Assembly: GCA_028284265.1 (NCBI GenBank)
Contig: JANQRZ010000019.1
Span: 62,001-126,000, forward strand
DNA length: 64,000 nucleotides
Source of the DNA: Rhodothermales bacterium
GTDB lineage: Bacteria; Bacteroidota; Rhodothermia; Rhodothermales; JANQRZ01
Direction: 5' to 3'
Part shown: positions 3,222 through 16,848 of the stretch, piece after piece
Numbering within the stretch: position 1 is the stretch's first letter
How the letters are laid out: every line of letters begins with the position of its first letter
The notes under the pieces: model-generated
What the model was told of the DNA's origin: nothing
Seen by the model: only the letters and a program-made list of their open reading frames with translations
Databases searched by the model: none
Program-made: the position numbers and the translations under genes

Positions 3222-5330
3222 ATGCGCCCCGCCTTTCTGTTTGCGCTCCTGCTCGCCCTCGCAGGCTGCACCTCTACCCAGACCGGCCCCAGCCTACCCG
3301 AGGTACCGCTCCCCGCCCAAGCTGCCACCGTCCGCCTCAGCGACGGCCTACTCGAACGCGACGATCTTCAGGCTATCGTCGAGCGGCAGACGCGGCGCGA
3401 TACGTCGGCACTCCGAACCTTCCTGATAAATGATGACCCGGCGGTGCGCGCGCGAACCGCTCTCGCCCTCGGCTCGGTACAGGACGCCGACGCAGCCCCC
3501 CTCGTGCTTCGCCTCCTCGCCGATCCCGCCCCGACGGTCCGCGCCGACGCCACCTTCGCCCTCGGACAGAGCGCCGACTCGACAGCGGAACAGTCGATTC
3601 TTGATGCACTCCGCGCCGAGCGTGACCCGGTGGTGCAGCGGCTCTTGCTGAATGCCCTCGGAAAGACGGGTGGGCAGGCCACTCTCGCCGCGCTGCCCGA
3701 CGTGCCGCTCAACGCGGCTCTTGACCCGGCCCGAGCCATTGCCATCGCTCGCTACGGGCTGCGCGGCGTCCACGACCGCTCGGCCACGGGCTGGCTCGCG
3801 AATCACCTCACGGCACCCGACGCCGAGCTACGCGAGCACGCGGCCTACTACTTCAGCCGGATGCGCGACCCGGCTCCGTGGCACCACGTCAGCGACATGG
3901 TCTTCTCGGCATCCGACAGCCTCTCTGCAGACGACCCGGCGCAGCAATACCTCTCCATCGCGCTCGGTCGGCTGGACCCAGTACGTGCGACGCCGCGCCT
4001 CCTCCCGCTGCTTCGCCGGAGTGATGACTGGCGCGTTCGCACGAATGCCGTCCGCGCCCTCACTCGGCCGGATGCCTCCGACGCCGTTCAGCACGCCCTC
4101 CTCGTCGCGCTCGACGATGCATCGGTCCACGTTGCAGTCACAGCCGCCGGAGCGCTCGCATCCATGAATCACCTTCCCACCGAACGGCTTGACCAAATCG
4201 AAGCGTGGATCGAGGCGCATCCCGAACGGTGGCGCGTGTGGACACCGCTGCTGCCAGGGCTAGTCGCGGGCGAGCGTGGGGAAGCCGCCTTGCGGTGGGT
4301 GCAGAGCGTGGACCCGCAGCATAAAGAGATTGCGGTGCCCTTGCACGAAACGGCCTTCGCCTACGCCGCCGCGCTCGATGCTCTCGTCGGGGCCGGACCA
4401 GAAGGCCGAGACATTCTTGTGGTGGCAGCAAGCAATGACGACTCACGTATTGCCTACGCCGCCCTCGAGGCGCTCAAGGAAGACTGGGAAGCAGACCGTA
4501 CAGCGGAGCGCGCGCCGTTCTTCTTCGACCGATTCGCGGAAGCGGTCCGACGGCGCGATCTCGCGACGGCCTACGCTGCCGCGCCCGTCCTCGCCGACTC
4601 GCTCTTCCGACTGCTCGGTGCCTCGGCGGTGCTCCGCGAGACCTACGCCGAGATGACCGTCCCCGCCGATATTGAGCCGATGGTCGCCATCGTCCGGGCG
4701 CTCGGCGCGGTGCAGGACACGACAGCGATTCCGTTTCTGCTCGACGTAGCGCTCGAAGGGCCGCACCCGACGATCCGGCAGGCCGCTGCCGCCACTCTCA
4801 GCGAACGCTTCGGACAGGGCGTAGACTTCGAGGCGACCGGCCTCGCCACCCCGCGCTTTCCGGCGCTCGACTGGCCCTACCTCCGATCTCTCGGACGGCA
4901 CCCGCTTCTGACGCTGGAGACAGACCGAGGTGTTATCGTCCTCGAACTCGATACCGAGGCGGCCCCTCTCACGGTCCAGACCATCACCCGGTTCGCCGAA
5001 CGCGGCGACTACGACGGCGTGTCGTTCCACCGCGTCATCTCCAACTTCGTAATCCAAGGCGGCGACTTCGTCCGCGGCGATGGGTTCGGTGGACCGGACA
5101 CCTTCATCCCGAGCGAGTTCGCCCGCATCCCCTACACACGCGGCACCCTCGGCATGGCCTCCTCCGGCAAAGACACCGAAGGCTCACAGTTCTTCGTCAC
5201 CCACTCGATGCAGCCCCACCTTGATGGACGCTACACCGTCTTCGGGCGCGTCGTGCAAGGACAGGACGTGGTGGACCTCATTCTGCAGGGCGACCGCGTG
5301 CTGAAAGCGACGATCATCCCTCGCCCTTGA
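3222..5330 (+). CDS. HEAT-repeat lipoprotein with C-terminal cyclophilin-type peptidyl-prolyl isomerase
   Basis: The 702-residue protein begins with a lipoprotein signal (LLALAGC) and is predicted to sit on the periplasmic side of a membrane. Residues of about 45-560 are alpha-helical HEAT-like repeats, recognisable from recurring 'DDPAVRARTALALG'-type units. The last 150 residues are a complete cyclophilin domain with the signatures FHRVISNFVIQGGD and GSQFFVTH, which accelerates proline isomerisation during folding of exported proteins. HEAT repeats usually form a protein-binding scaffold, so the fusion suggests a periplasmic chaperone that recruits a client. The stop codon is one base from that of the next, convergent gene. 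Whether the isomerase centre is fully active is not proven. Confidence 0.9.
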   Translation: MRPAFLFALLLALAGCTSTQTGPSLPEVPLPAQAATVRLSDGLLERDDLQAIVERQTRRDTSALRTFLINDDPAVRARTALALGSVQDADAAPLVLRLLADPAPTVRADATFALGQSADSTAEQSILDALRAERDPVVQRLLLNALGKTGGQATLAALPDVPLNAALDPARAIAIARYGLRGVHDRSATGWLANHLTAPDAELREHAAYYFSRMRDPAPWHHVSDMVFSASDSLSADDPAQQYLSIALGRLDPVRATPRLLPLLRRSDDWRVRTNAVRALTRPDASDAVQHALLVALDDASVHVAVTAAGALASMNHLPTERLDQIEAWIEAHPERWRVWTPLLPGLVAGERGEAALRWVQSVDPQHKEIAVPLHETAFAYAAALDALVGAGPEGRDILVVAASNDDSRIAYAALEALKEDWEADRTAERAPFFFDRFAEAVRRRDLATAYAAAPVLADSLFRLLGASAVLRETYAEMTVPADIEPMVAIVRALGAVQDTTAIPFLLDVALEGPHPTIRQAAAATLSERFGQGVDFEATGLATPRFPALDWPYLRSLGRHPLLTLETDRGVIVLELDTEAAPLTVQTITRFAERGDYDGVSFHRVISNFVIQGGDFVRGDGFGGPDTFIPSEFARIPYTRGTLGMASSGKDTEGSQFFVTHSMQPHLDGRYTVFGRVVQGQDVVDLILQGDRVLKATIIPRP

Positions 5331-7176: not shown

Positions 7177-7187
7177 GAGGGTCGCAT

Positions 7188-7208
7188 GTCGAGTGTCGAG
7201 TGTCGAAT
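7188..7208. repeat. Three tandem 7-nt repeats in an operon spacer
   Basis: GTCGAGT occurs at 7188 and 7195 and GTCGAAT at 7202, directly before the preferred start codon of the downstream gene. It belongs with similar periodic spacers near 10821, 21772, 52556 and 56181. Confidence 0.7.
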
Positions 7209-9381
7209 GGATAGCAGGATAGCGCGGCGGCGGCTTGCGATCACTCTCCCACTCTTCCTCTCTCTCCTTCTCGCCCCCACCGCCTTCTCCCAACCCGTCC
7301 CGCCGGACACGATTGACACCACCGCCGAGGCTGTCCTTGAGGACCTCACCGACGACGAGATCTCCGGCGACCCGACCGATCTGCTCGAACAGCTCGAAGA
7401 CCTCCGCGAGAACCCGCTCGATATTAACACCGCGCCCGCCGAGGACCTCGCACTCGTCCCCGCCTTCTCGTCACTCGTCGCCGAGACCATCGTCCGGTTC
7501 CGCGAGACGTTCGGCCCGTTCGAGTCGATTCCTGAGCTTCGGAGCGTAGAGGGCATCACCGAGGGCGTGTTCTTTGAGGCACGCCCCTATCTGAAGATCG
7601 GCCCTGAGCTTCCGGCCGTGGCGCGGGCGATTTCGCGGTATCCGTCCGTCCCATCGCTAGCAGAGATTCGCGCTGGAGCTCGGGTCGAGGTACTCCAGCG
7701 GGTGCAACGGCGACTCGACCTCGGCGAAGGGTTCGACGCGCTCCCCGATAGCCTCGTGGATGATCCCGATGCGCCGACGCGCTACGCCGGATCGCCCGAG
7801 CGGATCTACACCCGCATCAAGGCGACGTATCGCCGCAACATCAGCGCCAACGTCACGCTCGAAAAAGACCCCGGCGAGCGGTTCGCCTTCGATGGCGGGA
7901 GTCCGGGCTACGACTTCGCTTCGTTCCACCTCGCCGCGCTCCGGGTCGGACGGGTCGAAGCGCTCGTGCTGGGCGATTACGTGCTGGAATTCGGGCAGGG
8001 CCTCGCGCTGTGGCGGGCCGCCGGGTTCGGGAAAGGGCGCGAGTCAGTGCGACCGCTCGTCAAGCGGGGCCGGGGCGTCCGACCCTACGGCTCGACCGAC
8101 GAGAACCAGTTCTTCCGAGGAGCCGCCGCCACCCTCGCCGTCACGCCCGACCTCTACGTCACTGCCTTCGGCAGCCGCCGCACCCTCGACGCCTCATTCA
8201 ACGATGTGGACACGACGGATGTAGAAGGACCGATCACGGACGCCACCGTCGCAGGCCTCGCCGCCGATGGGCTGCACCGGACGCCAAACGAGATCGCCAA
8301 AAAAGACGCCCTCGGCCAGACTCTCTTCGGCGGCGGGGTCGAGTACCGATTCGACCGGGCGACCGTCGGGGTGGTCGGCTACAACGCCCGGTTCGACAAC
8401 CCGATTGCACTGGGCGAGCAGCCCTACGAGCGGTTCGACTTTGCAGGCGATCAGTCGACCGTGGCGAGCGCCTACGCCAACGTCTTCCTCGGCACCTTTC
8501 AACTCTTCGGCGAGGTGGCCTCGTCCGAAGGCGTGATCGCGGGCATAGGCGGGGCCGAGGCGAGCTTGGACCGGCTCGACGCGGTCGTGCTTGCCCGGCA
8601 CTACCCGCGTGACTTTGCCAGTCTGCACGGCTATGCCTTCGGCGAGCGCAACGGGACGACGCAGAACGAGACCGGCCTCTATCTCGGCTTCCGCCTCCGA
8701 CCGGCGCGACAGTGGGTCGTCTCGGGATACTTCGACCAGTACCGCTTCCCGTGGCTGCGCTTCGCGGTCCCGCGACCGGCGACCGGCCACGAGGCGCTAC
8801 TCTACGTCGAGTACAAGCCGCGCCGGTGGATCACGCTCTACGCGCAGGGCCGAACCGAAACCCGCGAGACCTCCGCCGACTTCGCCCAGCCGACCGGAGC
8901 GGTGCTCGAAGGCTTGGTGCCAGAGACACGGCGAAGTCTTCGTGTACAGGGCGAGTACCTCGCCAACCGCGACCTCCGCTTCCGCACGCGGATCGAAGGG
9001 TCGCACTACCGCGAGGGCGACGCACCGGTAGCAACCGGCGTGCTCCTTTTCCAAGATGTGCGCTGGCAGTTCACCCAGTCGCTCCGCCTCGACACGCGCT
9101 TGACGTTCTTCGACACCGAGGGATTCGACGCCCGGCTCTACCAGTTCGAGAACGACCTGCTCGGCGTCTTTGCCAACACGCTGCTCTTCGGCAAGGGCAC
9201 GCGGACCTATGCCATGCTGACCTTCAAACCCGGCGGTCGGTTCGAGGGCCTCGACCTCCGCGTAAAGCTCGCCTCGACGCGCTTCGAGGACCGGCGGACG
9301 ATCAGCAGCGGGCTGAACGAGATCGACGGGCCGCGCGTGCGCGACCTCTCGCTTCAGCTTCGCTACCGCTTCGGCGGCTAG
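7207..9381 (+). CDS. Helix-hairpin-helix domain outer-membrane barrel protein
   Basis: The 724-residue product has a signal peptide (ending TAFSQ) when started at 7207; an in-frame ATG at 7186 is possible but lies in a tandem repeat. Residues of about 60-130 hold ComEA-like helix-hairpin-helix units: LDINTAPAEDLALVPAFSS and FESIPELRSVEGI. Helix-hairpin-helix motifs in ComEA bind DNA without sequence preference. The remainder (about 150-724) looks like a large outer-membrane barrel with many aromatic-flanked strands (for example LYVEYKPRRWITLYAQG) and ends in LQLRYRFGG. Proteins with this architecture are common and uncharacterised in Bacteroidota. A DNA- or polymer-binding outer-membrane role is inference. 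Its stop overlaps that of the convergent kinase gene in a shared CTAG. Confidence 0.8.
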   Translation: MDSRIARRRLAITLPLFLSLLLAPTAFSQPVPPDTIDTTAEAVLEDLTDDEISGDPTDLLEQLEDLRENPLDINTAPAEDLALVPAFSSLVAETIVRFRETFGPFESIPELRSVEGITEGVFFEARPYLKIGPELPAVARAISRYPSVPSLAEIRAGARVEVLQRVQRRLDLGEGFDALPDSLVDDPDAPTRYAGSPERIYTRIKATYRRNISANVTLEKDPGERFAFDGGSPGYDFASFHLAALRVGRVEALVLGDYVLEFGQGLALWRAAGFGKGRESVRPLVKRGRGVRPYGSTDENQFFRGAAATLAVTPDLYVTAFGSRRTLDASFNDVDTTDVEGPITDATVAGLAADGLHRTPNEIAKKDALGQTLFGGGVEYRFDRATVGVVGYNARFDNPIALGEQPYERFDFAGDQSTVASAYANVFLGTFQLFGEVASSEGVIAGIGGAEASLDRLDAVVLARHYPRDFASLHGYAFGERNGTTQNETGLYLGFRLRPARQWVVSGYFDQYRFPWLRFAVPRPATGHEALLYVEYKPRRWITLYAQGRTETRETSADFAQPTGAVLEGLVPETRRSLRVQGEYLANRDLRFRTRIEGSHYREGDAPVATGVLLFQDVRWQFTQSLRLDTRLTFFDTEGFDARLYQFENDLLGVFANTLLFGKGTRTYAMLTFKPGGRFEGLDLRVKLASTRFEDRRTISSGLNEIDGPRVRDLSLQLRYRFGG

Positions 9382-10817
9382 GCTACCTCCTCAAGCGGCA
9401 AGCAGACTTTGAAGACCGTCCGCCCCGGCTCCGACTCGAGGTTGAGTGTGCCGGTGTGCTGCTTGACGACGATGCGCTGGACCATGTCGAGACCGAGGCC
9501 GCTTCCCTCGCCCACGCCCTTTGTGGTGAAGAACGGCTCGAAGATGCGCGACTGAATGTCCTCGGGCACACCGGCCCCATCGTCGATGATGGACACGCAG
9601 AGATAGTCGCCCACGACCTCCGCCTTGACCTCAATCGTACCGCCTTCGTCTACGGCGTCGAGCGCGTTGTCGAGAAGGTTGGTCCAGACCTGATTGAGTT
9701 CGCCAGTGTAGGCTGGGATACGCGGCAGATCGCTGGGGATGGAGCGGATGAAGCGGACGCTTTTCTTCTTGATCTTGTGCCCGAGCATCGTCACCGTCGA
9801 GTCGATGCCGACCGGTACGTCGGTGGCCTCCCGCGCCGGAGCTTGGTCCATGTGCGAGTACGTCTTCACCGACCCGACGAGACCCGAAATGCGCGAGGCG
9901 GCAGACTCGATCTCGGCCAACAGCCGGTCGGCGGCGAGCCCCCCCTCGATCCAGCGTAGCACGTCGGGTACGGCAGCAGCCGGTAGCTCGTCGGCGATCT
10001 CATCGAGGCACTCGACGGTAAACCCAGCATCGACGAGCACCTCGGCCAGCCGCCAGCCATCGTCTACGCCTAGCTCTTCGAGACGGTCGGCAAGATCATC
10101 CTCTTGCTCACCTCGTGCGACCGTCGAGAGGGTGCGATCTGGCTTTGCCGTGTTGCGGATATCGCTGGCCTGCCGGACCTGCTCTGCCGTGACTTGGTGC
10201 TCAGTCATCCGCGCTACCAGTTCGGGAAGCTGCGTGACGCGCTCCTGGAGCTCGGCAGCAGAGCGACGGATGGCGGCAGCCGGGTTATTCAGCTCGTGCG
10301 CGAGGCCCGCCGAGAGCTTGCCGAGCGCCATCATCTTCTCGCGCTGCTGCGAGGCCCGCGTCGACTCGCGGACCCGGTCCGTCATCCGCGCCACGAGGCG
10401 CTGGCCTAACTCTTCGCTCGTATCCAGCAGTCCGGGGAAGTCTTTGCGGTCGACAAACACGGCGCGCACCGGCTCCAGCACGAGACCCGTCCCGGTGTAG
10501 TGCGTCATCCGGGAATAAGGCAGCAAGCCTGCCACACGCCCGCCTCGCATGGTGTCATAGAGAATCGGCTGACCACCTACGTCGATCACAAGTTGAACCG
10601 CTCCATCGAGAGTAATCACGAGTTCGTTCGCCTCATGGCCGTTCTCGAACACGCGCTCGCCGACGGAGAACTCGTAGTAGCGACCGTGCTCGGCGAGCCA
10701 CTCGAACGTCGCCTCGGGCAACCCCTCGAACTCGGGGACCACACGAATGTCATCAACGGGGACGGGACCTGCCGTGGGACGTTCGGCAATGGACGAATAG
10801 GTAGTGGAGGATTCCAT
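9378..10817 (-). CDS. Sensor histidine kinase with cyclic-nucleotide-binding-like N-terminal domain
   Basis: The 479-residue protein is soluble: no membrane segment is visible. Residues of about 22-150 form a Crp-like beta-roll (EFSVGERVFENGHEANELVITLDG region). The phosphate-cassette position reads VAGLLPYSRMTH, unlike the canonical cAMP cassette, so the ligand is uncertain. The dimerisation/phosphoacceptor helix has LAHELNNP with His174; then come about 150 residues of helical insertion, and a full ATPase domain (N box NLLDNALDAV, DDGAGVP, FEPFFTTK, GEGSGLGL). The start at 10817 is chosen because the upstream extension runs into a periodic repeat. It is the last gene of a minus-strand cluster whose first gene has a receiver domain, its likely partner. 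HATPase activity looks intact. Confidence 0.9.
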   Translation of the reverse strand: MESSTTYSSIAERPTAGPVPVDDIRVVPEFEGLPEATFEWLAEHGRYYEFSVGERVFENGHEANELVITLDGAVQLVIDVGGQPILYDTMRGGRVAGLLPYSRMTHYTGTGLVLEPVRAVFVDRKDFPGLLDTSEELGQRLVARMTDRVRESTRASQQREKMMALGKLSAGLAHELNNPAAAIRRSAAELQERVTQLPELVARMTEHQVTAEQVRQASDIRNTAKPDRTLSTVARGEQEDDLADRLEELGVDDGWRLAEVLVDAGFTVECLDEIADELPAAAVPDVLRWIEGGLAADRLLAEIESAASRISGLVGSVKTYSHMDQAPAREATDVPVGIDSTVTMLGHKIKKKSVRFIRSIPSDLPRIPAYTGELNQVWTNLLDNALDAVDEGGTIEVKAEVVGDYLCVSIIDDGAGVPEDIQSRIFEPFFTTKGVGEGSGLGLDMVQRIVVKQHTGTLNLESEPGRTVFKVCLPLEEVA

Positions 10818-10820
10818 AGT

Positions 10821-10852
10821 TGGGTAATGGGGGTGCAAGGGTAACGAGGATG
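10821..10852. repeat. Degenerate 8-nt tandem repeat in an operon spacer
   Basis: Four 8-mers with a shared central GGG or AGG (tgggtaat, gggggtgc, aagggtaa, cgaggatg) lie 4 nt before the kinase start codon. Confidence 0.6.
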
Positions 10853-10888
10853 AGCCACTAACACGCCCATCCTCTGAAACACGCACAC

Positions 10889-11203
10889 CTACAGTTGAAC
10901 CTTATCGATATAGCACCAGCCCCACCGCTCGCCCGGCTCAACAGAGCGCATGACGGCATGGTCGGTCTCATGAAAATGCTTCGTGGCGTGCTTACCCCGC
11001 GACGAGTCGCAGCAGCCGACGTGCCCACAGACGACGCACATTCGCAGGTGGACCCACGCCTGTCCGGCCTTCAGACACTCCTCGCACCCCTGTGCGCTCG
11101 GCTGCACGGACTGAATCTGGTCCGTGTGCGAGCACACCGCGCGAGGCGACGGCTCAAAGTGGATCGTGGCCTCAGTGTCGATGAACGGAGCGGAGGTAGG
11201 CAT
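10889..11203 (-). CDS. UBP-type zinc finger protein
   Basis: The 104-residue protein is essentially one ZnF-UBP domain, the fold that in eukaryotic deubiquitinases binds the free C-terminus of ubiquitin. The ligand pattern is complete: C24 and H26, the pair C40/C43, then CVVCGHVGCC and a histidine-rich HATKHFHETDH segment. Bacteria lack classical ubiquitin, so the bound partner is unknown. It lies 11 nt after the antiporter stop and before the sensor kinase, in the same orientation, so it is probably cotranscribed. The association of small UBP fingers with thioredoxin-reductase-like proteins and cation antiporters is known in other bacteria and unexplained. A redox or C-terminal-tail recognition role is inference. 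Confidence 0.9.
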   Translation of the reverse strand: MPTSAPFIDTEATIHFEPSPRAVCSHTDQIQSVQPSAQGCEECLKAGQAWVHLRMCVVCGHVGCCDSSRGKHATKHFHETDHAVMRSVEPGERWGWCYIDKVQL

Positions 11204-11214
11204 GGCGACGAGGG

Positions 11215-13593
11215 TCAGGACGCAGTGATGCCGACAGCGTCGAGCGCGGCATCGAGTTCTTCGAGGGTCGGGTTCTTCATCTCCCGATCGCCGACGACGA
11301 CCATCGGGAACTTGAGCTTGCCCTCATTCATGGCGAGGACCGCTTCCTCGGCGCTCGGATCGGCCTCGACATCGTGGAAGGTGTGGCGAATGCCCTGCCG
11401 GTCAAAGTAGGCGCGAAAGCCGGTCGTGAGCGGGCACCACGTTGCGCCGTAGACGGCGGGGACCGGCGCTTTGTCGAGATCGCCGGAGGCTCCGTCGCCG
11501 GAACTGAACGCGGAGGGAACGTGGACCGCGTCGGGCAGCGCCGTGCCTTGGGCATCGGTGCTGAGGCCCTCGGGCCGAAAGAGCACGGCGGCAGCAGCGA
11601 AGGCTTCAGACGACCCGACGAGCTTGACCTCGTCACCCGCCTGCAGCGTCAGGCTGTCATCGTCGATCTCCTGCCAGTCGCCATCGCGCTTAATCATCTT
11701 CGCCTCGACGCCGTAACGCCCGAGATCGAGCGCTCCGACCGTCGAGCCAATAGCAGCGGCTCCGTGGAAGACGTGGACGTGGCGAAGGTCGAGGTTGCCG
11801 TCGGTCAGCTTGCAGACGAACGCGGCCATGTCGGCGTCGGTCATCTCGCGGAGCGCGACATATCCGTTCTCGCGCATCGCCTCGACCTGCTCCTCGATCC
11901 GGTCGCGCCCAATGCCGTAGTCCCGCAGAATCCCGGCGACGAGCTGGACGACCACCTCGAACTCCTGCGCGATCACATGGTCCGCCCCGACCTCTTCGAG
12001 CGTCTCGGCGTCGGAGAGGTAGCGGGCGCGGGCAAAGACGCGCATCGTCGGGTTCAGCCCGCGAGCAACCTGAATGGTACGCTCGGCGAGGGCGGTGTCA
12101 TCGTCGGCGATGACGAGCGCTTTGGCGCGATAGATGCGCGCCGCTTCGAGCGTGTGAGCGCGAGCCGGATGTCCGCGCACGACGGCCAGTCCGTCGGCCT
12201 CGGCTTCATCGGCGCGCGGCGGCGAGAGCGTGACTACGACGTGGGGAATACCACTCGACCGCATCACCCGGACGAGCCGCCGGGCGCTTCGCCCATAGCC
12301 CGCCACGATGACATGGTTTTCGATCTGGCTATGCTCCTCGGCGAGCATCCCCGTCTCCTCCGATTCCTCCATCTCGGCCATCATCTTCGTTTCCTTCTGG
12401 TCCTCCATCTTCCGCCCCAGACGCGTACCGAGGGTCGCCAGCATCGGCGTGGCAATCATCAGCAGGACGGTCGCCGCGATGAACGTCTGACTGCCAGTAC
12501 CTTCGAGGCCTGCTGGGAAGAGGCCGACCTCGCGTCCAGCCCGTTCGAGCACGAACGAGAACTCCCCGACCTGCGCCAGCAGCAGCGCACTCGCTGCCGA
12601 GACCGGAAGCGTGTAGCCGAGTGCCCGTGCCGCGATGCCGGTGATGAGCACCTTGATGACAAGCACGGCCACGACTGCCCCGATGACGAGCGGGAGGTTC
12701 GAGATCAGAAAGCCCACGTCGAGCAACATCCCGACCGAGACGAAGAAGGTCGCCGAGAACAGGATTTGGAGCGGCATGATCTCGCCGAAGGCGTGCTCCG
12801 AGAAGCGCGACTCGCTCACGATCAGTCCGGCAAGGAACGCGCCGAGGGCGACAGAGACGCCCGCAAGACTGGTCAGCCACGCCGTCCCGAAGCAGAGCGC
12901 GATGACGGCGAGGAGAAACAGTTCCTGCGAACAAGTCCGTGCCACGATCTCCAGCACCTTCGGCATCACCCGCCGCGCGACCAGCAGCACCGCCGCGATC
13001 ACGAGCGCCGCCACGCCGAGCGCCTGCACGATCTCCAGCGCACCGCCGCCTTCGCCCGCGAGCATCGGGACGAGGAGCACCATCACGATGATCGCCAAGT
13101 CCTGAAAGATGAGAAAGCCGAGGCCGACCTGCCCGTGCGGCTCCTCCATCTCGCCCCGGCTGCCGAGCAGCTTAAGAACGATGGCCGTCGAAGACAGCGC
13201 GACGAGGAACCCGGTGAACAGCCCTGCCTGCCACGGCACACCGAATAGCATCAGCAGACCCATCACCACCACGCTCGTCAGCCCGACCTGTAACCCGCCC
13301 CCACCGAAGATGAGCCGCTGAATCTTGGCGAGCTTCTCCAGCGAGAACTCGATACCGATTGTAAACAGAAGCAGGATCACACCCACCTCGGCGAGCGCAT
13401 CGACCATCTCTTGGTCCTCGATCAATCCAAGAGCGTGCGGCCCGATGAGCACGCCCGTCAGCAGAAAGCCGACAATCGGGACGAGGCCGAGCCGGTAGCC
13501 TGCGTAGGCCACCACCGCACCAGCCACAATGAGGATGGCAACTTCGACAAGGAACGGGGGCGCAGCAGCAGCGAGAAACAGATTCATACTCAT
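11215..13593 (-). CDS. KefB/CPA2-type cation:proton antiporter with RCK and glutaredoxin-like tail
   Basis: The 792-residue protein has an N-terminal CPA2 antiporter domain with about 12 membrane segments (residues about 10-385, including LLTGVLIGPHALGLI), expected to exchange K+ or Na+ for H+ across the inner membrane. A TrkA-N/RCK nucleotide-binding domain follows (VIVAGYGRSARRL, about 420-545), then a TrkA-C domain (about 555-665). The last 80 residues resemble a glutaredoxin: a strand, then TWCPLT (Cys720), a FPMVVVGD segment and a final helix. A single active-site Cys suggests a monothiol-type domain. KefB-type channels are gated by glutathione adducts, so redox gating by the fused tail is plausible. 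Its ATG overlaps the stop of the flavoprotein gene (ATGA), implying translational coupling. Confidence 0.92.
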   Translation of the reverse strand: MSMNLFLAAAAPPFLVEVAILIVAGAVVAYAGYRLGLVPIVGFLLTGVLIGPHALGLIEDQEMVDALAEVGVILLLFTIGIEFSLEKLAKIQRLIFGGGGLQVGLTSVVVMGLLMLFGVPWQAGLFTGFLVALSSTAIVLKLLGSRGEMEEPHGQVGLGFLIFQDLAIIVMVLLVPMLAGEGGGALEIVQALGVAALVIAAVLLVARRVMPKVLEIVARTCSQELFLLAVIALCFGTAWLTSLAGVSVALGAFLAGLIVSESRFSEHAFGEIMPLQILFSATFFVSVGMLLDVGFLISNLPLVIGAVVAVLVIKVLITGIAARALGYTLPVSAASALLLAQVGEFSFVLERAGREVGLFPAGLEGTGSQTFIAATVLLMIATPMLATLGTRLGRKMEDQKETKMMAEMEESEETGMLAEEHSQIENHVIVAGYGRSARRLVRVMRSSGIPHVVVTLSPPRADEAEADGLAVVRGHPARAHTLEAARIYRAKALVIADDDTALAERTIQVARGLNPTMRVFARARYLSDAETLEEVGADHVIAQEFEVVVQLVAGILRDYGIGRDRIEEQVEAMRENGYVALREMTDADMAAFVCKLTDGNLDLRHVHVFHGAAAIGSTVGALDLGRYGVEAKMIKRDGDWQEIDDDSLTLQAGDEVKLVGSSEAFAAAAVLFRPEGLSTDAQGTALPDAVHVPSAFSSGDGASGDLDKAPVPAVYGATWCPLTTGFRAYFDRQGIRHTFHDVEADPSAEEAVLAMNEGKLKFPMVVVGDREMKNPTLEELDAALDAVGITAS

Positions 13594-15230
13594 AGCGTGG
13601 CGAGATGGCGATGCATGAAGTGGACGGCGACGGAGCCTTCGCCGACAGCACTGGCGACGCGCTTGACGGACTCGTGCCGCACGTCGCCCGCGACAAAAAT
13701 GCCGGGAATGTTGGTCTCTAAGAGGTATGGTTCGCGCTCCAGCGGCCAGCCGTCGAGGTGGTGGTCTTTGAGGTCAGGGCCGGTCGGGACGAAGCCGCGC
13801 TCATCGCGGACGACGACGCCGTCGAGCCAGTCGGTGCGCGGCGCGGCTCCGATGAAAACGAAGACATACTTGGTATCGACGGTCTGCTCCTCGCCCGTTT
13901 TCTTGTTCTTGAGCGTAAGCCGCTCCAAGTGATCCTCCCCCTCGCACGCAGCAACTTCGGTGTGCAGCATCACGTCGATGGTCGGGTGCTCCTCAATGCG
14001 CTCGACGAGGTAGTGACTCATGCTCTTGCCGAGGTCGTCGCCCCGAATCAGCATCACGACACGCTTCGCGTACTCGGCGAAGTACATCGCCGCCTGCCCC
14101 GCCGAGTTGCCTGCGCCGACGATGTAGACCTCTTCATTCTTGCAACTCATGGCTTCGGTCATTGCCGCGCCGTAGTAGACGCCGCGTCCGGCGAGTTGCT
14201 CGGCCCCCGGTGCAGGAAGCTTCCGCCACGAGACACCGGTGGCGAGCATCAGGACGTGGCACGACACCTCGCTTCCGTTGGAGAGGGTGAGCCGCTTGTA
14301 GGGTCCGTCGATGCGCAGGCTCCGGACTTCCTGCGGCGTGAGGATTTCGACACCGAAGCGCTCGGCTTGCGTCGTGGCTCGCCGCGCGAGGTCGGCCCCG
14401 GAGAGGCCGGACGGGAAGCCGAGATAGTTCTCGATCCGGCTCGACGTCCCCGCCTGTCCGCCCGTTGCTTCGCGCTCGATGAGAACGGTCCGTAATCCCT
14501 CGGACGCGCCGTAGACCGCCGACGCCAATCCTGCCGGGCCGCCGCCGACGATGGCAAGGTCGTAGAACTCACTCTCGGCACTGGTTCGCAGGCCGAGCCG
14601 CTCGGCGAGTTCGCTGGGGGCTGGTGCTTCGAGCCGCTCTCCTTCAGGCAGGACCGCCAGCGGAAGCAATGCTTCGCCGTTTAGCAGTGAGGTCCCCTCC
14701 TCGCTCTCGGCATCGATGAACTCATAGGGGACCGCGTTGCGGGCGAGGAAATCTTTGAGCGCGTGCGTCTCCGCCGACCACCGGCTGCCGACAATCCGGA
14801 CACCGCCATACCCTGGCCGGTAGCTCGCCTTCCAGTCGCCGAGGAGATCATCGAGAACGGGATAGAGCCGCTCTTCCGGTGGATCCCACGGTTTGAGGAG
14901 GTAGTAATCGACCTGCGACCGGTTGATGGCCGAGATCGCGGCCTCGGTGTCGGCGTAGGCGGTGAGCAGCGCGCGCTTACTGTTCGGAAAGCGCATCATC
15001 GCCTCGCTCAGAAACCCGACGCCGTCCATCTGCGGCATCCGCTGGTCCGAGAGCAGGAGGGCGACGGGGTCGCCACGTTCCTGTAGTTCGTTGAGCGCGG
15101 CGAGGGCTTCTTGGCCGGAGGCGGCACGGAGGACGCGATAGTCTTGCCCGTAGCGGCGGCGCAGGTCGCGGGCGATGGCGCGGAGCACATCGGGGTCGTC
15201 ATCAACGACGAGGATGACAGGCTTGGTCAT
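13590..15230 (-). CDS. Response regulator fused to a thioredoxin-reductase-like flavoprotein
   Basis: Residues 1-130 form a receiver domain with the acidic pocket D10-D12, phosphoacceptor D62 (SDQRMP), T90 and K113. Residues of about 143-215 look like a glutaredoxin fold in which the Cys motif is replaced (RWSAET). Residues of about 225-546 are a thioredoxin-reductase-like FAD/NAD(P)H domain with GGGPAGLASA, a second nucleotide motif GAGNSAG and the FAD motif GIFVAGDV. The CxxC active site of true thioredoxin reductases is absent: the aligned stretch reads AAMT (355-358). It may therefore act as an NAD(P)H-dependent flavoenzyme with another acceptor. It heads the cluster; phosphorylation by the downstream kinase is the natural hypothesis. 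The fusion class is known from genomes but not understood. Confidence 0.92.
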   Translation of the reverse strand: MTKPVILVVDDDPDVLRAIARDLRRRYGQDYRVLRAASGQEALAALNELQERGDPVALLLSDQRMPQMDGVGFLSEAMMRFPNSKRALLTAYADTEAAISAINRSQVDYYLLKPWDPPEERLYPVLDDLLGDWKASYRPGYGGVRIVGSRWSAETHALKDFLARNAVPYEFIDAESEEGTSLLNGEALLPLAVLPEGERLEAPAPSELAERLGLRTSAESEFYDLAIVGGGPAGLASAVYGASEGLRTVLIEREATGGQAGTSSRIENYLGFPSGLSGADLARRATTQAERFGVEILTPQEVRSLRIDGPYKRLTLSNGSEVSCHVLMLATGVSWRKLPAPGAEQLAGRGVYYGAAMTEAMSCKNEEVYIVGAGNSAGQAAMYFAEYAKRVVMLIRGDDLGKSMSHYLVERIEEHPTIDVMLHTEVAACEGEDHLERLTLKNKKTGEEQTVDTKYVFVFIGAAPRTDWLDGVVVRDERGFVPTGPDLKDHHLDGWPLEREPYLLETNIPGIFVAGDVRHESVKRVASAVGEGSVAVHFMHRHLATL

Positions 15231-15429: not shown

Positions 15430-16848
15430 TCAGACAGGCTCAAGAATCGGTGTGACGTTCTGGTGGGTGTGGAAGACGTTGTCAGGGTCGTACTGCTTCT
15501 TGATAGCGCGGAGCCGGTCGTAGCTCGCCCCGAGCGCAGCTCGGACGGCCGCCTCACCGTCTTCGGCAAAGCCAGGGAAGTTGAGGTAGGAACCACCCGT
15601 CGAGTACGACTCTAGGGCGACGGCACAGTGGCGCGCCCATGCAACATTCGCCTCGTCCGTAGCGGCATCGTGCCAGTTGGCTTCAATACCGATCATGTAG
15701 GGCGCGCTCCGGTCTCCGAAGGCGGTAGCGTCCGCCGGGACGCGGCTCGCGGCACCCCCATCCGTGAACCACACGTCGAGCGTCGAGTGGGCAGACGGAG
15801 CTTCGGCGTTGAGCGTAACAAGGTCGTCGATGGCTGCATCGGAGAGCACTGCGAGACGAGTCGACTTCCAATAGTAGTGTCCGCCGGTCGGATAGTCCTC
15901 ATCGAAGAACTGCTGCATCTCGAGGAATGGCAATGGCCCGCTGAGGTCGGCCATCGGTTCGGCGAGGGTGCGAAGCGACGCGAGGGCCTGCTCGCCTTCT
16001 TCTACGGTCCCGATCCACGCCCCAACGAGCGCGACGAACGGCTTGCCCCAGTGCTCCACCGGGAAGAACTCGGCCTCAGGGATATGACCGAGAACGCCAA
16101 TCGGGCTGAGCGATTCAGGGAGATCGGGGCCGAGATCGCGGACATGGCCGAGCACCGTGCGAGCAGCTTCGACCGGATAGAACACGGCGAGGCCGAAGAC
16201 GTCCGGCCCGAGCGGGTAGGCTTCATACTCAAAGGCCGTCACGACGCCACAGTTGCCGCCACCGCCGCGCAGCGCCCAGAACAGATCGGCATTCTCGTCG
16301 GCGCTCGCGCGGAGCACGCGCCCATCGGCAGTCACGACCTCGGCGGCGCGGAGCGCATCGCAGGAGAGACCGTGCTTCCGGGTCTGCCAACCGTAACCGC
16401 CGCCGAGCGTCAGCCCCGCAATGCCGGTTTCGGTGACGACACCCATCGGCACAGCGAGGTGATACGCCTGCGTGGCTGCATCAAGATCGCCAATCGTGAC
16501 CCCGCCCTCGGCGACGACGCGCCGGGACCCGGGGTCTACGCGAACCGCCTTCATCTCCGAGAGGTCGATCACAAGGCCGCCATCGGACGAGGCCATGCCC
16601 GCGACGTTGTGCCCGCCGCCACGTACGGCGATGTCCAGCCCGTGCTCGCGAGCGAAGGCAAGTGCGATGACCACGTCCTCGGTGTTCGCACACCGGGCGA
16701 TGAGTGCCGGGTGTTTGTCGATCATCCCGTTCCAGAGCGGGCGGGCTGTTTCATAATCCGCGCTACCGGGCACGAACAGAGCACCAGTCATACGGCTACG
16801 GAATGCGTCGATGTCCGACACGGCAAGAGAGTGCATGTGGAGTTCCAT
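15430..16848 (-). CDS. FAD-linked oxidase, berberine-bridge-enzyme-like
   Basis: The 472-residue protein is a vanillyl-alcohol-oxidase superfamily flavoenzyme. The PP-loop region carries RGGGHN with His80, which in this family usually binds FAD covalently at the 8-alpha position. The FAD domain continues with GLTLGGGYGWQ and LRGGGGNCGVVTAFEY, and the C-terminus has the BBE motif ending YDPDNVFHTHQNV. The second covalent Cys seen in bicovalent relatives is not obvious. Such enzymes oxidise alcohols, sugars or aromatic secondary metabolites with O2; the substrate cannot be told. No signal peptide is seen. It is in the same orientation as the redox cluster but separated by 199 nt with a hairpin, so it is probably a separate unit. 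Confidence 0.88.
   Translation of the reverse strand: MELHMHSLAVSDIDAFRSRMTGALFVPGSADYETARPLWNGMIDKHPALIARCANTEDVVIALAFAREHGLDIAVRGGGHNVAGMASSDGGLVIDLSEMKAVRVDPGSRRVVAEGGVTIGDLDAATQAYHLAVPMGVVTETGIAGLTLGGGYGWQTRKHGLSCDALRAAEVVTADGRVLRASADENADLFWALRGGGGNCGVVTAFEYEAYPLGPDVFGLAVFYPVEAARTVLGHVRDLGPDLPESLSPIGVLGHIPEAEFFPVEHWGKPFVALVGAWIGTVEEGEQALASLRTLAEPMADLSGPLPFLEMQQFFDEDYPTGGHYYWKSTRLAVLSDAAIDDLVTLNAEAPSAHSTLDVWFTDGGAASRVPADATAFGDRSAPYMIGIEANWHDAATDEANVAWARHCAVALESYSTGGSYLNFPGFAEDGEAAVRAALGASYDRLRAIKKQYDPDNVFHTHQNVTPILEPV

Follow-up and report, generated by a model that had tools for sequence, protein, structure and literature searches.

Four consecutive genes lie on the minus strand of a 64,000-nucleotide stretch of DNA (hereafter the window, meaning that whole stretch) from a Rhodothermales bacterium (assembly GCA_028284265.1, contig JANQRZ010000019.1, positions 62,001 to 126,000), whose genome comprises 3.69 Mb in 24 contigs. 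These genes, here called FUS, ANT, UBP and KIN, encode a receiver domain fused to a flavoprotein of the thioredoxin reductase (TrxR) type, a cation/proton antiporter with a glutaredoxin (Grx) tail, a small UBP zinc finger protein and a soluble histidine kinase. Together they look like a signalling switch that has not been studied: the kinase would control the flavoprotein, and the flavoprotein would probably gate a potassium/proton pump. The kinase and the flavoprotein constitute a two-component module that is real, widespread and unusual in its output, and sequence comparison indicates that this pair and the exchangeable tails of the antiporter are conserved in many bacteria.

Gene organization of the locus

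All four genes are present in the outline given by an initial annotation of the DNA, and both their coordinates and their domains bear that outline out. The start of ANT overlaps the stop of FUS (ATGA), and UBP, which sits between ANT and KIN, begins 11 nt past ANT (Table 1). Pfam assigns Response_reg and Pyr_redox_2 to FUS, Na_H_Exchanger, TrkA_N, TrkA_C and Glutaredoxin to ANT, zf-UBP to UBP, and cNMP_binding, HisKA (below its cut-off) and HATPase_c to KIN. The start of KIN is probably ATG 10817, not GTG 10886, because homology begins right after that ATG.

Table 1. Genes and domains of the four-gene set (window coordinates)
Feature	Coordinates	Strand	Description
FUS	13590..15230	-	546 aa; receiver / pseudo-glutaredoxin / TrxR-like flavoprotein
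ANT	11215..13593	-	792 aa; cation/proton antiporter with RCK domain and Grx tail
UBP	10889..11203	-	104 aa; stand-alone ZnF-UBP protein, Zn ligands intact
KIN	9378..10817	-	479 aa; soluble histidine kinase, N-terminal Crp-like domain
FUS receiver (REC) domain, aa 6-118	14877..15215	-	Pfam Response_reg 3.9e-15
FUS cysteine-less glutaredoxin-like domain, aa 139-216	14583..14816	-	AlphaFold, Foldseek, hhalign
FUS TrxR-like FAD/NAD(P)-binding module, aa 220-546	13593..14573	-	Pfam Pyr_redox_2 1e-38
ANT CPA2 (Kef-type) membrane domain and TrkA_N (RCK) domain	11971..13518	-	Pfam; KefC best solved relative
ANT glutaredoxin tail	11284..11454	-	Pfam Glutaredoxin 1.5e-5

The expectation that the whole set would be found together elsewhere was not upheld. 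A search across genomes met the order FUS-ANT-UBP-KIN in two species alone, that of the window and a sister species of the same genus, whose UBP is frameshifted. A conserved four-gene operon was rejected, and the conserved unit is FUS-KIN. The commonest arrangement is FUS-KIN without a nearby antiporter; across 80 loci from GTDB genomes, a relative of KIN lies within 1.5 kb of FUS in 69 and on the same strand in 66, and UBP is nearby in 24. In the window, the downstream border of the set is a convergent plus-strand gene (7186-9381). A gene for a BBE-type FAD-linked oxidase (15430-16848, minus strand) is located 199 bp upstream of FUS, and no such gene was found near FUS in three relatives.

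A flavoprotein that has lost its thiol redox centres

In GTDB genomes, 588 stretches were confirmed as related to FUS, and 96 relatives were aligned for residue checks. In the receiver domain, D10, D11, T90, K113 and the phospho-acceptor D62 (codon 15047-15045) are invariant in all 96. The C-terminal module keeps the motifs for binding flavin adenine dinucleotide (FAD) and nicotinamide adenine dinucleotide or its phosphate (NAD(P)), GGGPAG and GxGNSAGQA, and these are strictly conserved. Against TIGR01292 it scores 224 bits, under the cut-off of 343 bits. The redox-active CxxC, which would fall at positions G354..M357, is missing from 96 of the 96 relatives: FUS reads YYGAAMTEA (YYGAAxTEA-type in relatives), as against SACATCDG, in the same order, in canonical TrxRs. 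A single cysteine, C363, is conserved (94 of 96). The predicted structure, with a predicted local distance difference test (pLDDT) score of 88.5, best fits the flavin-reducing (FR) TrxR conformation 5mh4 (TMt 0.93; flavin-oxidising 5mjk, 0.62).

Pfam gives no domain for residues 139-216, which separate the receiver from this module. A Foldseek search with full-length FUS returned mainly TrxR-type matches, and the middle domain was therefore folded and searched alone. AlphaFold predicts the secondary structure order b-a-b-a-b-b-a, the top Foldseek match is Mrx1 (2lqo; prob 1.00, TMq 0.72), with Mrx1, NrdH and Grx ranking best, and hhalign relates the domain to the Grx tail of ANT with a probability of 97.5%. 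Where a WCPxC-type motif is expected, FUS has GSRWSAE. S152 occupies the position of the glutaredoxin active-site cysteine; serine is found there in 89 of the 96 aligned relatives, among which cysteine is not one of the commonest residues at this position.

Judged by these residues, FUS is not a thioredoxin reductase; it is a flavoprotein derived from TrxR and Grx that, except for C363, has no thiol redox centre. The description 'thioredoxin-reductase-like' in the initial annotation is therefore right as to the module and its FAD/NAD(P) motifs, and misses both the loss of the CxxC and the cysteine-less domain of glutaredoxin fold. The suggestion that the output of FUS is something other than DNA binding is supported. 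The thiol 'redox switch' proposed with it finds no support, and a disulfide redox relay via FUS was rejected as the default: a disulfide switch through FUS is unlikely because the CxxC has been lost and the glutaredoxin-like domain has no cysteine.

The kinase and its partner receiver

In KIN, H174 (codon 10298-10296) and the N, G1 and G2 boxes are intact, and an alignment of 83 sequences shows H174, N380, N384, DxGxG and GxGxG conserved in 95% or more of them. The N-terminal domain belongs by fold and family to cNMP_binding (30.4 bits, cut-off 27.5). The Glu/Arg pair that would bind the phosphate of a cyclic nucleotide is, by alignment, missing from the window protein, which has residues L98 and L112 there, and is present in many relatives. 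Canonical cAMP sensing by KIN was rejected, since the phosphate-site residues are missing from the window protein.

Receiver-type FUS and KIN are present in exactly the same 32 of the 247 genomes of the phylum (Fisher p 6e-41, a value weakened, like the one for the antiporter given below, by the phylogenetic non-independence of the genomes). The two genes occur together even where they are not neighbours, being on separate contigs in G182 and far apart in three closer relatives (G032, G039 and G053). One additional, weak KIN match (G235) covers the generic kinase part only. KIN is missing from the genomes that have receiver-less FUS only (G153, G172, G186 and G226). In several receiver-less FUS proteins a cNMP domain is fused instead, and the KIN profile matches it; others are free of additional domains. 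One type of input domain is thus found in cis or on KIN, and reaches the flavoprotein either directly or via kinase and receiver. This alternation between a cis-fused and a kinase-borne Crp-like domain is the strongest evidence that sequence offers on the direction of signalling. On the evidence of gene content, KIN and receiver-type FUS are true partners, as had been presumed.

The antiporter and its exchangeable tails

ANT has KefC as its best solved relative (E 4.5e-64). Q164/D165 align with Q155/D156 of KefC, and SSTA and K314 align as well. Against the NCBIfam models for KefC and KefB, ANT scores 314 bits (cut-off 752) and 263 bits (cut-off 804), and reaches neither cut-off. Relatives show two kinds of tail, a Grx domain or a UBP zinc finger fused to the antiporter. 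In a set of 60 relatives, an antiporter with either tail was found in 15 of the 16 genomes with receiver-type FUS and in 2 of the 44 others (Fisher p 4e-11), the two exceptions being G006 and G046, the latter with receiver-less FUS. A Grx tail occurs in 6 of the 60, and all six of these have FUS. Shared neighbourhood does not explain the association, because several cases are unlinked: in G031, G043 and G053 the tailed antiporter is not linked to FUS. Both tail types, in linked and unlinked cases alike, recur in several families. A tail-less paralogue of ANT, encoded in the same genome outside the window (G000:C16:326349-328331) and 50% identical to ANT, occurs in relatives with and without FUS. 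These distributions indicate that the antiporter belongs with KIN-FUS, as the initial annotation had it, and that the link is real; control of the antiporter by the FUS module is likely.

In the antiporter tree, Grx-tailed sequences cluster together, next to UBP-tailed ones, as if the tails had been swapped. With the root of the tree unsure, an ancestral UBP tail and a derived Grx tail are no more than a suggestion. A genome without FUS (G009:C1:4345762-4346577; L292) encodes an N-terminal antiporter piece (aa 6-277) with 73% identity, which lies in a 380-aa frame ending in unrelated sequence and is perhaps the remnant of a tailed antiporter.

The Grx tail of ANT keeps one active-type cysteine, C720 (WCPLT; codon 11436-11434), and FUS might pass electrons to it, so that its oxidation state would gate exchange. 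The retained CPLT cysteine and the near-invariance of C363 in FUS speak for such a thiol-redox switch, as does the restriction of Grx-tailed antiporters to relatives with FUS. FUS itself, however, has no disulfide centre and has serine for cysteine in its Grx-like domain, and UBP-tailed antiporters dispense with the Grx tail yet keep the same FUS partner. We consider this switch improbable.

UBP zinc fingers beside and within antiporters

The small UBP protein matches its Pfam family at 1.8e-12 (47.8 bits, cut-off 22.7) and the solved bacterial protein 2ida at E 5e-33, and the Cys/His zinc ligands are largely invariant in 26 relatives. FUS is present in 25 of the 27 genomes of the phylum that have UBP; in the other two, UBP is fused or adjacent to an antiporter. 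Fusions of UBP to antiporters recur in relatives within the order of the window species, and Deinococcus plasmids encode UBP fingers fused to CPA2+RCK proteins. In actinobacteria the finger is found at the C-terminus of NhaP/CPA1-type Na+/H+ antiporters, in 19 of 20 long UBP reading frames (L215, L254-L272) that were chosen for length. In a sister class (L191, L192, L193 and L194), a gene for a 525-aa CPA2+TrkA_N antiporter neighbours UBP, in some cases together with KIN and FUS.

In the sister species (G001:C55, about 4967-5251; locus L112), UBP is frameshifted and has lost zinc ligands; FUS, ANT and KIN are intact. Most genomes with a Grx tail are without UBP. In view of these two observations, the finger may have given way to the Grx tail.

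Two side observations concern UBP fingers elsewhere. In the acidobacterium G299 (L213:1438-2427), the finger is joined in one protein to a diadenylate cyclase (DAC) domain of the DisA type; cyclic di-AMP controls K+ transport. On a Deinococcus plasmid (L183, 1422-4646), genes for a heme oxygenase, an ATP-binding protein and a response regulator, possibly a bacteriophytochrome set, lie near a UBP-tailed antiporter. Ubiquitin-like signalling by UBP was set aside, as no ubiquitin-like partner was seen; we know of no bacterial ubiquitin target, and a bacterial protein would not be expected to bind ubiquitin. The C-terminal tails of FUS, KIN and ANT were rejected as ligands of UBP, having no motif in common.

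The finger could be the true output of the system, an adaptor bringing FUS to a range of targets, such as antiporters and the diadenylate cyclase, with the antiporter as one client. Its near-constant company with FUS in the phylum, and the fusions that join it to a DAC domain or to antiporters from two superfamilies, favour this idea; its absence from several FUS genomes and from most Grx-tailed lineages goes against it, and we assign it a low probability. That the four genes are chance neighbours of unrelated functions would suit the confinement of their exact order to one genus, but is very improbable in view of the recurrent fusions and of the presence/absence statistics, the co-occurrence tests having already disfavoured it.

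Proposed mechanism

In the mechanism that we propose, soluble KIN would sense a cytoplasmic cue via its Crp-like domain, autophosphorylate at H174 and transfer the phosphoryl group to FUS, at D62. FUS, binding FAD and NAD(P)H, would serve as a regulatory subunit, as KefF does on KefC, instead of reducing disulfides. Phosphorylation of FUS, together with its NAD(P)H/flavin state, would decide whether it engages or releases the cytoplasmic tail of the antiporter, be this the glutaredoxin-like domain or the UBP finger, which in the window genome is a separate small protein. We infer the phosphotransfer, the contact between FUS and the tail, the direction of gating, K+ as the ion, the cue, and the direct gating of the antiporter by FUS. 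Our best reading, to which we give about even odds, is that FUS regulates a K+/H+ antiporter much as KefF does, under the control of a two-component system and via an exchangeable tail. More tentatively, there may be a widespread module in which a two-component relay drives a catalytically retired TrxR/Grx flavoprotein that reads NAD(P)H as an allosteric subunit of cation/proton antiporters, docking on their Grx or UBP tails.

Several observations weigh against this regulatory role. An antiporter adjoins FUS only in the lineage of the window and in one sister class; in most phyla FUS-KIN has no antiporter like that of the window next to it (1 of the 80 loci does). G006 has a UBP-tailed antiporter with neither FUS nor KIN, several FUS genomes are without UBP, and the sister species has a frameshift in it. 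Moreover, a cNMP-fused enzyme of similar architecture, ATII-TrxR, was reported to reduce thioredoxin and 5,5'-dithiobis(2-nitrobenzoic acid) (DTNB) with NADPH or NADH (PMC6544261), which would favour an enzymatic output.

The main rival is an enzymatic role, in which FUS acts as an NAD(P)H oxidoreductase regulated by phosphorylation (a diaphorase, or an enzyme that reduces a small electron carrier or a thiol partner) and the antiporter, without being its target, is co-expressed with it in one stress response. The strict conservation of the FAD and NAD(P) motifs, the reported activity of ATII-TrxR, whose architecture is similar, and the prevalence of FUS-KIN without a nearby antiporter are all in keeping with it. 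The CxxC, however, is missing throughout, and tailed antiporters accompany FUS even where the genes lie apart, a pattern that co-expression by itself would not lead one to expect. We regard this alternative as rather doubtful.

The regulatory role of FUS, were it confirmed, would tie an enzyme-like flavoprotein, as the output of a response regulator, to a defined physiological target, an antiporter, and would account for the survival, next to kinases and in many phyla, of 'thioredoxin reductases' that lack the catalytic disulfide. Regulation of the Kef type, by a flavoprotein, would then have arisen at least twice, on unrelated folds, and a kinase and cellular reducing power would jointly set ion and pH homeostasis post-translationally. 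The puzzling UBP zinc fingers of bacteria become testable as antiporter regulators, and would gain a function as an antiporter control domain.

Comparison with known systems

Fusions of REC and TrxR domains have already been listed as a domain combination among 'Mycobacterium-like' response regulators (PMC5847659), and these REC-thioredoxin reductase regulators are presumably of the same family as FUS; the listing itself does not describe a kinase partner, the loss of the CxxC, the Grx-like linker or the link to an antiporter. No account of the KIN-FUS pair, of its cysteine loss or of its association with tailed antiporters was found in the open-access papers searched, nor anything on UBP-antiporter or UBP-TrxR systems. 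ATII-TrxR, with a Crp-like domain followed by a TrxR-like module, has the architecture of part of the receiver-less FUS branch. It differs from FUS in having its input domain in cis, with no kinase or receiver; the comparison is one of architecture. The UBP protein is close to the bacterial ZnF-UBP protein 2ida, itself deposited as a hypothetical protein. The mycoredoxin/NrdH glutaredoxin family supplies the fold common to the linker domain of FUS and the tail of ANT, although the copy in FUS, unlike those proteins, is without the active-site cysteines.

The closest parallel is provided by the glutathione-gated K+ efflux systems of E. coli, KefC-KefF and KefB-KefG. The KefF gene lies 5' of kefC with an overlap of a few bases, and the oxidoreductase activates transport without catalysis being directly needed (PMC10224563; also PMC11150392). 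Unlike KefF (~20 kDa), FUS has a TrxR fold with REC and pseudo-Grx domains, and falls outside the KefF/KefG-type subunits; also unlike the Kef systems, the present one has kinase control and a Grx or UBP tail on its antiporter. As in those systems, ANT is a CPA2 antiporter with an RCK domain, it retains the K+-site residues Q, D and K of KefC, and its gene is directly preceded, with a few-base overlap, by that of the oxidoreductase-like FUS.

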